Shown: positions 3,310-6,310 of the stretch, in pieces
Layout: each line of letters starts with the position of its first letter
How positions within the stretch are numbered: the stretch's first letter is position 1
DNA from: Anaerolineae bacterium
GTDB taxonomy: Bacteria > Chloroflexota > Anaerolineae > Aggregatilineales > J027
DNA length: 48,500 nt
Direction: 5' to 3'
Assembly (NCBI GenBank): GCA_019913005.1
Contig: JAIOHL010000333.1
Coordinates: 164,885-213,384 of the forward strand
Program-made: the position numbers and the translations under genes
Notes under the pieces: model-generated
The model's database searches: none
What the model was told of the DNA's origin: nothing
What the model saw: only the letters and a program-made list of their open reading frames with translations

Positions 3310-4329
3310 ATGCAGCCCTGTGGATTATTGTTTATCTTATCTGGCCCAGCGGGTGTTGGAAAAAACACAATCATGCGTGGTGTCCTAAAGGCGATGCCGC
3401 ACCTCAAGCAGTTACCCACCGCCACAACGCGCCCCCCACGTGCCGATGAGCAAGAAGGACGTGAACATGAATTCCTCTCCGCCGCCGAATTTCGCCGCCG
3501 TATCCTCGAAAAAGCCTTGATCGAATGGCAAATTATCCACGATGCCAGTGTCTATGGCGTGCCGCGTGCCACCATCCAAGACGCCATCCGCAGCGGCCAA
3601 CCGCTGATCGCTGATATAGATGTTTTAGGGGCGATGCAGTTAAAGCAGGAATTTGGCGAGCAGGTTGTTTTGGTTTTTATCGAGGCTGGCGACAAAAACC
3701 TATTGGCAAATCGGATGCGCAAACGCTCGGAGGTTTCGGACGAGGAGTTGAACACACGCCTGCGCAGGGCCGAATTTGAACATGAATTTGCCGATGAATA
3801 CGACTATGTGATTGTGAACCAAGAGGGCCAACTTGAGGCCAGCATCCAAGAGATGATCGAGATCGTCACTGGCGAGTGTGACAAAAATGCCCAAACCCGT
3901 TTCGCCGCCGATGCTGCCATAGGTTGGAACCCGACACTCATTCAGCAGTATGTCACTGGACTCGTCGTTCAAAACGGCTGCCTGCTGCAAGCACATGGCG
4001 AATTCCCCAAAATCAAAGTACCAACCGAGAAACTCCCTTTTGAGGCTATCCAAGCCCATCTGCGTGCCGAATTAGGGGTGGAGATTTATCCGACCCGACC
4101 CGATTCGCCGACCCGCAAAGTGGATATTGGATTTGAGCCAGCCCAATTGATTCGCGTCACACGCAAAGCCACCGCCATCGAGACCAATTTCATCTATGTG
4201 CTGCTGGTAGCACACGATCTCCACGAACTACCCGAAGGATGGGGGTTTATTCCCATCACCAATCTACATCTAGATGCCCATATCATGGAAATCTTGACGC
4301 AGACCGAGGCCATGCCGCAAACCGATTAA
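3310..4329 (+). CDS. gmk: Guanylate kinase with C-terminal degenerate Nudix-like domain
   Basis: Residues 1-190 are a full guanylate kinase, which phosphorylates GMP to GDP with ATP in the cytoplasm. The P-loop GPAGVGKNT lies near 12-20, followed by ATTRPPR, the lid region with YGVPRA, the ADIDVLGA strand and the EYDYVIVN ending. After the P-loop lysine there is Asn where Gly or Ser is usual. Ordinary Gmk ends near residue 200, but this protein has about 140 more residues. The tail (about 205-330) reads like a Nudix fold: a GLVVQNGCLLQAHG strand pair, then a helix ending in RAELGVEIY where the Nudix box should be. The catalytic RE and EE pairs of that box are not present, so the tail is probably non-hydrolytic. 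A weak RBS (AAGAGG) lies 13 bases upstream of the ATG. The stop overlaps that of the opposite-strand solute-binding gene. Confidence 0.85.
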   Translation: MQPCGLLFILSGPAGVGKNTIMRGVLKAMPHLKQLPTATTRPPRADEQEGREHEFLSAAEFRRRILEKALIEWQIIHDASVYGVPRATIQDAIRSGQPLIADIDVLGAMQLKQEFGEQVVLVFIEAGDKNLLANRMRKRSEVSDEELNTRLRRAEFEHEFADEYDYVIVNQEGQLEASIQEMIEIVTGECDKNAQTRFAADAAIGWNPTLIQQYVTGLVVQNGCLLQAHGEFPKIKVPTEKLPFEAIQAHLRAELGVEIYPTRPDSPTRKVDIGFEPAQLIRVTRKATAIETNFIYVLLVAHDLHELPEGWGFIPITNLHLDAHIMEILTQTEAMPQTD

Positions 4330-5150
4330 AGCCAGCGAGCAATGATCTCGTACAGTTGACCTGAGCGCCGGAGTGCATCAAGGGCTTGGCTGAGTTCCAG
4401 ATAGAGCCGCCAATCACTACGTCGCACCGCCATCACATAGGGATCGGATAGGAGGGGTATCGAACTGACCACCAATTCAGGGTGATCTTTGATAAACAGG
4501 CGGGCGCTAATCGCATCCACCAACGCCCAATCTGCTTGACCCGCCAAGATCGCTTGCATCGCGTCTTCGGAGGCCATCAAACGTTGTAATTCAAATGGCG
4601 GCTGCCCAAAATCCTCTAACCACTGTCGCGCTTGGCTATCGCCCTCTGACCCCAATTCAACCGCTAATGTTACGTCCGTCAAGCCGTCAAAATCTTCGGG
4701 CAGAGGGGTATCGGAATGGCCTACAAATACCTGCCCAGCGTCAAAATAAGGCTTGGTATACAGGACTACGCCTTTACGCCGCGCTTCGGGATGCAGGGCC
4801 GAAATCAAGACATCTACAAAACCAAGTGCCAGCGTATCATACAGACCGTCATAACCCAAGACTACCAAACGCACATGGGCCACGCCCATTTTTTCGGCAA
4901 GGGCCTGCGCCAAATCCGCATCAAGACCCTCAACGTGATCTTCGCCAAAAATGCCAAAGGGGGGAAAGCTGGGGTCTATGCCCACAACCAGCGTGTCATC
5001 GCGGTGAATGCGTTCCCATGTCGCATCGGTTGGGCCATTGCCGCCGCGTACTAAGGCCCACGTGCTGCTGGTCACAACTAAAAATGAGAGCAGGGCAACC
5101 CCCGACACGAATGCACGTTTAGTCGAAAGCCATTGAATTCGACGTCTCAT
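4326..5150 (-). CDS. Extracytoplasmic solute-binding protein, family 3 type
   Basis: This is a 274-residue protein with an N-terminal membrane segment or uncleaved signal (about residues 13-34) and a bacterial solute-binding domain of the amino-acid/mediator class. Recognisable parts are the opening strand LVVGIDPSFPPFG, GLDADLAQALAEKMG, and the second-lobe region VTLAVELGSEGD. I chose the ATG at 5150 because it overlaps the upstream stop as ATGA; another in-frame ATG lies at 5165. No ABC permease or ATPase is nearby, so it may act as a sensor or as an orphan binding protein rather than in a complete importer. It is the last gene of a minus-strand run whose reading frames overlap or nearly touch. 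Its TAA overlaps the stop of the convergent gmk by four bases, and no terminator hairpin is visible there. Confidence 0.75.
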   Translation of the reverse strand: MRRRIQWLSTKRAFVSGVALLSFLVVTSSTWALVRGGNGPTDATWERIHRDDTLVVGIDPSFPPFGIFGEDHVEGLDADLAQALAEKMGVAHVRLVVLGYDGLYDTLALGFVDVLISALHPEARRKGVVLYTKPYFDAGQVFVGHSDTPLPEDFDGLTDVTLAVELGSEGDSQARQWLEDFGQPPFELQRLMASEDAMQAILAGQADWALVDAISARLFIKDHPELVVSSIPLLSDPYVMAVRRSDWRLYLELSQALDALRRSGQLYEIIARWL

Positions 5151-6310
5151 TGCGGCTGTTCCCATCCACGCGCATAGGCTTGCACCGCGTCATAAATCGG
5201 CTTGGGTTCAAAATCACTGGAAACAAAGGTAAAGTAATCGGGGTAGCGATTGGTGGGGGCAGGGAATCGAAACACCCACAAGCAGATACCTTTCAGCCAT
5301 GTATACTGCTTGGTCATCTCCAACATTTCCAGCGTGTAGTTGATCCGCAAGGCCGGACGGATGCCGTACAACCAGCGTGGGTGGTCATTCCAGCCTGTTT
5401 CGGTGATATAAACGGGTTTATCCCCATCGCCATATTGCACCATCACCTCATACAGTAGCTCAATCCGCCGAAAATTGAGCACATCGGGAGCGGGATCAGC
5501 TTGGGGCGGAAACGTAAATCCGTAGGTATGCACCGCCAGTGCATCAAAATAATCACCTGCGCTTGCTTCGTACATGCGGGTCAAAAAATCGAGGTCGTCC
5601 CATCCGCCATTCATACCACCGGGCGGTGCGAGGGTTGGGGCAAGGGCCGCGTTCAAAATTATTACATCAGGGTTGGCGGCATGAGCGGCTTCATAAGCCA
5701 TTTTCAGCAGGCGGGTATAGCCTTCGGGGTCGGGCGGACGTTCACCCCATTCGAAATTGAGATTGGGTTCGTTCCAAATGATAATCTGATCCGCCCGGCC
5801 TTTGTAACGGGCCGCAAATGCGCCAATATATTTGGCAAAACTGGGGAATTCGCTTTCGGGTAAATAATTGAGCGTAGATTGGGTATCACTTGGGCGTGCC
5901 CACCCCGGTACAAAGCCAATCCGCGCAATCACTTTGAGGCCCTGATTTTCGGCGTATTCGATGATGCGATCAGGGTGATACCATTCGTAATGGCCGCGTT
6001 CACGTTCGACATAGGCCCACGGCAGGAACTCAACAATCGAACTGACACCCATTTCGCGTACCATGCGCAGGGTTTCTAAAATCTTGGCATCCTCTACCTC
6101 ATCGGTTAGGCGGGTATGGGCACACACGCGCGGGTCAGTAGTTTCAACTTGCTGCGGCGCACCTAAATGAAAAGGAGGGGCAGATTTTTTGGAGGCGGGG
6201 TCAAGAGGGTAATAGCGCGGGGCCGCCCAAAAATAGATGAGCAGGAACAGGACACCACAGCGCAGCGCCCATGTTCCATAGTTTAGCGTTCGCGGATGCC
6301 GGCGAAGCAT
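5147..6310 (-). CDS. Membrane-anchored clan-A glycoside hydrolase-like protein
   Basis: About 387 residues: a short basic N-terminus, one membrane segment (about residues 15-33) and then a TIM-barrel domain of the GH5/GH39 clan-A type facing outside the membrane. Expected catalytic positions are seen: IIIWNEPN carries the acid/base Glu, and VYITETGWND carries the nucleophile Glu. An intermediate strand ALAVHTYGF also fits the clan. By family knowledge such enzymes cleave beta-linked glycans; the substrate cannot be read from sequence. The ATG at 6310 is preferred. An in-frame TTG at 6331 would leave only three bases between an AAGG and the start. Its stop overlaps the start of the solute-binding gene (ATGA), so the two are probably translated together. 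Cleaving or remodelling a surface glycan is a reasonable inference. Confidence 0.75.
   Translation of the reverse strand: MLRRHPRTLNYGTWALRCGVLFLLIYFWAAPRYYPLDPASKKSAPPFHLGAPQQVETTDPRVCAHTRLTDEVEDAKILETLRMVREMGVSSIVEFLPWAYVERERGHYEWYHPDRIIEYAENQGLKVIARIGFVPGWARPSDTQSTLNYLPESEFPSFAKYIGAFAARYKGRADQIIIWNEPNLNFEWGERPPDPEGYTRLLKMAYEAAHAANPDVIILNAALAPTLAPPGGMNGGWDDLDFLTRMYEASAGDYFDALAVHTYGFTFPPQADPAPDVLNFRRIELLYEVMVQYGDGDKPVYITETGWNDHPRWLYGIRPALRINYTLEMLEMTKQYTWLKGICLWVFRFPAPTNRYPDYFTFVSSDFEPKPIYDAVQAYARGWEQPQ

Follow-up and report, generated by a model that had tools for sequence, protein, structure and literature searches.

A putative non-catalytic Nudix-homology domain following the C-terminal helix of a guanylate kinase in Anaerolineae of the order Aggregatilineales

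Nudix-homology domains that do no hydrolysis of their own have been described at the C-terminus of an unrelated enzyme in MutY/MUTYH, where the domain is dispensable for catalysis and changes specificity (PMC9266487), and in DBC1-type and other non-catalytic regulators, multidomain proteins in which the Nudix fold is likewise present without the hydrolase residues (PMC5389931). A putative nucleotide-sensing domain has also been found joined to a guanylate kinase domain, in phage fusions that carry SLOG, not Nudix, and that are described as sporadic (PMC9503650). The present study concerns a gene in a 48,500-nucleotide stretch of contig JAIOHL010000333.1 (positions 164,885 to 213,384, forward strand; assembly GCA_019913005.1) from an Anaerolineae bacterium of the order Aggregatilineales. 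The gene, located at positions 3310-4329 of this stretch (hereafter the window), encodes a guanylate kinase (GMK) followed by a further domain, or tail, of putative Nudix ancestry.

Up to and including its C-terminal helix, the window protein has the fold of bacterial GMK, its predicted structure aligning with the Escherichia coli enzyme 2an9 at a VIA Z score of 23.8 (model residues 3-199) and with the Staphylococcus aureus enzyme 4qrh at 19.5 (model residues 2-198); it differs from both in an extra domain of approximately 130 residues placed after that helix. Residues 227-359 of MutY were amongst the fold matches of the tail (Z 9.2). MutY is, however, a DNA glycosylase whose Nudix domain recognises oxidised guanine (oxoG) in DNA, and no such role is indicated for the gmk tail. 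The DBC1-type regulators have a partner enzyme different from that of the window protein, and are likened to it by fold and architecture, not by residues. No description of a GMK-Nudix fusion was found in the open-access literature searched, and the architecture adds a case to a known type, in which an enzyme unrelated to the Nudix proteins carries a Nudix domain without catalytic function.

The preferred reading, to which we assign a probability of roughly 0.45, is that the tail is a retained non-catalytic module acting on the guanylate kinase through the C-terminal helix of the latter. A Nudix-homology domain would have lost its hydrolase residues and been kept on the cell's guanylate kinase, where it may cap the C-terminal helix and alter the contact of this helix with a lid, whether that of the partner subunit or that of its own. 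The altered contact could in turn set the activity of the kinase and its sensitivity to guanine nucleotides, including the alarmone (p)ppGpp (guanosine tetra- or pentaphosphate). Many relatives have retained the inactive domain, and its role is therefore probably to regulate or shape the kinase, not to catalyse a reaction. A more tentative proposal is that the flux from GMP to GDP is gated, via the lid/alarmone helix, by a ligand or partner of this dead domain, in an arrangement gained once in the order. The features referred to below are as follows, with positions in the window.

3310..4329, + strand: gmk-Nudix fusion gene, 339 amino acids (open reading frame list, ATG start; PF00625 match)
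3322..3879, + strand: guanylate kinase domain, residues 5-190, with the P-loop GPAGVGK at residues 12-18 (Pfam, VIA-align)
3832..3894, + strand: C-terminal helix of the kinase domain, residues 175-195, which the extra domain follows (DSSP on the model)
3895..3930, + strand: linker, residues 196-207 (no helix or strand in the model)
3931..4308, + strand: putative non-catalytic Nudix-homology domain, residues 208-333 (AlphaFold2 model, hhalign, Foldseek, VIA-align)
4012..4080, + strand: degenerate Nudix box, residues 235-257, with A249 H250 ... A253 E254 L G256 at the RE..EExG positions (alignment positions)
4090..4164, + strand: loop and strand, residues 261-285, with an order-wide F-x-x-P motif (F275; P278, which is A in the window) (alignments)
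4231..4248, + strand: P-x-G-W-x-W/F motif, residues 308-313, PEGWGF in the window (alignments)

The fold of the tail was assessed from predicted structures. The AlphaFold2 model of the full-length protein, built from eight sequences (the window protein and seven relatives), had a mean predicted local distance difference test score (pLDDT) of 82.8 and a predicted template modelling score (pTM) of 0.80, the five models spanning 66.4-82.8, and contained a beta/alpha domain of about 130 residues at approximately residues 208-333. This domain comprises strands at residues 211-221, 224-228, 234-236, 259-261, 280-285, 290-300 and 311-315 and helices at 243-255 and 323-333; pLDDT was 85-92 in nine of the 13 ten-residue blocks counted from residue 211, the remaining blocks scoring 53 and 71 (261-280), 76, and 59 (end). 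When a tail-only model of moderate confidence was submitted to Foldseek, 48 of the 50 matches listed belonged to the Nudix family, as judged from their titles or known identities (best E=3.1e-5), the other two being chains of 3rh7, which is titled an oxidoreductase. VIA-align with the same model gave Z scores of 8.7-10.1 and root-mean-square deviations of 2.5-5.6 for the 50 matches listed, which included MutY C-terminal domains and isopentenyl-diphosphate isomerases. An earlier note on the window, made from the sequence, had suggested that the tail looks like a Nudix fold and had left the matter to structure prediction of residues 200-339; as far as a model of moderate confidence indicates, the tail does have a Nudix-homology fold and not an unrelated one.

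Nudix ancestry was also suggested by profile comparison. An alignment of 64 order tails (leaving out L069, a different fusion, and L029, L095 and L104, the tails of which are shorter than 120 residues) was compared by hhalign with an alignment of 16 intact Nudix domains of the window genome, giving a probability of 92.6 and a score of 42.8 over 94 columns. The reversed control gave a probability of 0.1, and 200 column shuffles gave probabilities of at most 1.3 and scores of at most 15.6. PF00293 was matched by 10 of the 64 tails at E<=1, the best at 1.4e-5; of five tails rescanned against its cut-off of 21.1, one scored above it (25.0), one equalled it (21.1), one lay just below it (20.3) and two gave no match. 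Over 301 phylum genomes, the best five of the 65 non-self places found with the tail profile all have an intact Nudix box. Profile similarity to Nudix domains is a property of the order tails as a set, not of the family-only alignment or of the window tail taken singly. Matches of single tails to unrelated Pfam families (e.g. L078, E=0.0037) were dismissed as chance, no second member supporting them.

The Nudix box of the tail is degenerate. In the window, R is replaced by A249 and the two following glutamates by H250 and A253, the last E (E254) and the G (G256) being retained, while I235 stands for the G at the start of the box and K241 for the E of GE. RE..EE was found in none of the 64 order tails, which thus fall outside the hydrolase box GX5EX7REUXEEXGU; 35 of them have none of the three acidic residues and 29 have one, counts that depend on the alignment. 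The absence of the RE and EE residues remarked upon in the earlier note was hence confirmed, E254 being kept. Hydrolases with non-canonical boxes do exist, E. coli NudD/Gmm being active with the box GX5EX7RLX2AEXGU (PMC5389931), so that loss of catalysis in the tail is likely rather than proven. The window shares the A-E-x-G-U end of the box with NudD/Gmm (PMC5389931), and the tail might on this ground be regarded as still an enzyme, like the GDP-mannose mannosyl hydrolases; given that the window also lacks the G at the box start, the E of GE and the R, and that so many tails are devoid of all three acidic residues, this is very improbable. The window genome contains 22 matches to PF00293 (Nudix).

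The kinase half was matched by PF00625 over residues 8-186 (E=1.5e-27), its 96.9 bits passing the Pfam gathering cut-off of 25.2. The best NCBIfam model, the equivalog TIGR03263, scored 154.4 bits and narrowly missed its cut-off of 160.45, and the gene was therefore assigned to the guanylate kinase family PF00625 and not to the curated equivalog. As the sole PF00625 match found in the window genome, an assembly with completeness rated at 96.34%, the gene presumably encodes the cell's GMP-phosphorylating enzyme. The full-length model aligned with solved GMKs at Z scores of up to 25.6, and the 50 matches listed in the full-length fold searches were guanylate-kinase-type domains, which makes these searches uninformative on the tail. 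Residues G12, G15, G17, K18, R41, R44, E47, E72, Y82, G83, D102, D104, R137 and R150 were unchanged in all eight family sequences, and are taken here to be P-loop, GMP-site and lid positions. The kinase, which the earlier note had called normal, is so in its family match and key residues, with one small qualification: residue 53 (window positions 3466-3468) is His in the window and Tyr in all 11 class outgroups sampled, a Tyr that we assume to contact the GMP phosphate. Of the order members compared, 58 of the 67 that have the tail and 19 of the 24 that lack it carry His53 (with G127 counted amongst the tail-less, here and in the kinase tree); being frequent in the tail-less members too, this residue is not linked to the tail.

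Of 151 order genomes, 140 gave a match to PF00625, and in 66 the tail profile matched immediately downstream of gmk on the same contig (E<=1e-7), the latter count not being independent, since 63 of the 66 genomes supplied rows to the profile. A single-sequence tail search of 61 genomes gave nine positives, namely all five genus members searched (the window genome included), three of the five remaining family members and a single further genome of the order; the tail has thus been kept, and not lost throughout, in the close relatives, a point on which the earlier note had made its proposal depend. No gmk was detected in G008 of the same family. No clear tail match was found in the 277 class genomes outside the order (298 class genomes were searched), where the best tail-profile match was 1.6e-6 and weak matches (to 1e-3) occurred in 26 of the 277, lying apart from the kinase place wherever this was listed, some kinase places being unlisted. 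The genome searches scored the best first-look candidates, at most 26 per genome in the order and at most 13 in the class and phylum, and may have missed some tails. A frame artefact as the source of the GMK-Nudix frame was considered and set aside, as members of the genus and family share this open frame.

Gain and loss of the tail were considered on a weakly resolved kinase-domain tree (FastTree, 97 tips, of which 86 belong to the order, partial ones having been removed). The tree contains an excess of tailed genes, the loci that supplied the order tips having been chosen partly for the length of their frames. G127, G055, G145, G148 and G045, with a run of X or partial genes, were left out of the parsimony count. 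The tail label required 8 changes, against at least 21 in 500 shuffles; with gain made costly, one gain and 7 losses were obtained.

Several observations weigh against the preferred reading or give it weaker support. The tail has probably been lost in several lineages, as judged from this tree, and would therefore not be essential to the kinase. A shorter, divergent tail in G006, of the same family, was missed by the tail profile, and in three family members outside the genus identity to the window is 31-41% in the tail and 58-62% in the kinase. The tail-only model is weaker than the full-length one, with a mean pLDDT of 69.2 and 29 of its 140 residues below 50. No Pfam or NCBIfam family was matched at E=10 or better by the window tail (residues 201-339) on its own, and hhalign with the eight-sequence family-only tail alignment gave a Nudix probability of 25.3%. 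A sequence search of the PDB with the tail profile returned one match at E<0.001 (a MutT/nudix protein, 7.9e-4), and the restriction-endonuclease entries 3okg and 5ybb (E 0.0027-0.0035), which align to the profile at the GWRW segment only, ranked amongst the Nudix matches.

Order-wide, the tail sequences diverge strongly (mean column identity 24%), which, like the apparent losses on the kinase tree, would also suit a non-functional, decaying remnant. Within the genus, however, the ratio of non-synonymous to synonymous substitution rates (dN/dS) in the tail was 0.058-0.107 (nine of 10 pairs, those in which dS was finite), much as in the kinase (0.054-0.113, all 10 pairs); these pairs, from five genus members, are non-independent, and the four involving L014 have dS >1. 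The tail is under purifying selection within the genus and is not decaying. Together with the P, Y and W positions conserved order-wide and a fold that is mostly confident in the full-length model, this makes the decaying remnant a highly unlikely explanation.

A separate observation concerns dS itself. Amongst four close genus members, the window compared with L012, L013 and L015, dS was 0.11-0.28 in the kinase half and 0.36-0.56 in the tail, the former being 1.6 to 3.2 times lower; local recombination or a constraint on the coding RNA is a possible cause.

The leading order-wide conserved tail positions are P233, P278, Y296, W313, P243, W311 and L226, at which the window has P, A (278), Y, F (313), P, W and L; the second-ranked column, R263, was excluded as a gap in 90% of rows by weight. 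The conserved residues are mostly hydrophobic or proline and suggest a surface for packing more than a pocket for a nucleotide. Amongst the eight family sequences, five of which are of one genus, R263, R269, F275, E276 and Q279 are invariant, and one RelA/SpoT homologue (rsh) was matched in the window genome. The charged and polar members of this set (R263, R269, E276 and Q279) and the presence of rsh would speak for the dead Nudix pocket being a ligand sensor, binding a nucleotide such as an alarmone, an ADP-ribose/NAD derivative or a dinucleoside polyphosphate and gating the kinase allosterically. Such a sensor is nevertheless doubtful in view of the order-wide hydrophobic and proline positions, and of the published finding that (p)ppGpp exerts its effect in the active site of GMK (PMC6783271). 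The suggestion of the earlier note that the tail may sense an alarmone drew no support from any result.

The same hydrophobic and proline set would fit a purely structural role, in which the domain leaves activity unregulated and serves to stabilise the kinase or its oligomer, or as a docking site for a partner protein. The stretch 271-290 had block means of 71 and 85 in the full-length model and below 50 in the tail-only model; this gain in confidence gives a weak hint that the stretch packs on the kinase, and is consistent with a structural role, as are the several apparent tail losses. The low tail dN/dS is compatible with such a role and with regulation alike, and a domain that is structural and nothing more is considered unlikely.

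For the preferred reading, that of a module acting through the C-terminal helix, the basis is published work on this helix. In Bacillus subtilis and E. coli GMK the helix contacts the lid of the partner subunit, and deletion of the last 10 residues has opposite effects in the two: the B. subtilis enzyme binds (p)ppGpp less well and is less inhibited by it, while the E. coli enzyme becomes (p)ppGpp-sensitive (PMC6783271). The alarmone binds in the active site, where it is tuned by the C-terminal helix of the neighbouring subunit, and it inhibits GMK in several bacterial phyla, not in Proteobacteria (PMC6783271); Chloroflexi are not mentioned in the main text of that paper. Given the role of the helix in lid contact and (p)ppGpp sensitivity, the junction directly after it is, by analogy, a plausible site for control of the kinase. 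Since (p)ppGpp acts at the active site and is tuned by the helix, the tail could alter the alarmone response without binding the alarmone. The rsh gene of the window genome is in keeping with this reading too.

The position of the junction is apparent from both structure and sequence. Structural alignments to several bacterial GMKs extend to model residue 198-201, and in genus g24 the tail-less members (G121, G126, G143 and G144) stop no more than about 20 residues from the ERSxR segment in the helix, while in their tailed congeners the frame continues past this segment into the Nudix domain. Tailed and tail-less members within one genus provide natural pairs for testing the evolution of GMK regulation. 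GMK determines the flux towards GDP and GTP, and the pseudo-Nudix domain adjoins its regulatory helix; on the more tentative proposal, that of gating by a ligand or partner, the tail would be an allosteric switch built into the enzyme that controls the supply of guanine nucleotides.

As to the neighbourhood, the last 4 bases of gmk (4326-4329) also belong to a convergent solute-binding-protein-like gene (4326-5165, - strand), and the same 4-base overlap was seen in L014 and L018. An operon link was set aside, as gmk is followed in the window, L014 and L018 by this convergent gene and then by a glycosidase-like gene, names that were assigned by reading the sequences. A further long gmk frame was noted in genome G057 of genus g31 (L069:406-2040, - strand), where it goes on to encode a folate-binding domain of the aminomethyltransferase type (PF01571, E=4.4e-32). 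The remaining listed gmk frames of that genus have 207-211 codons, and the long frame represents either another kind of gmk fusion or the loss of a stop codon.
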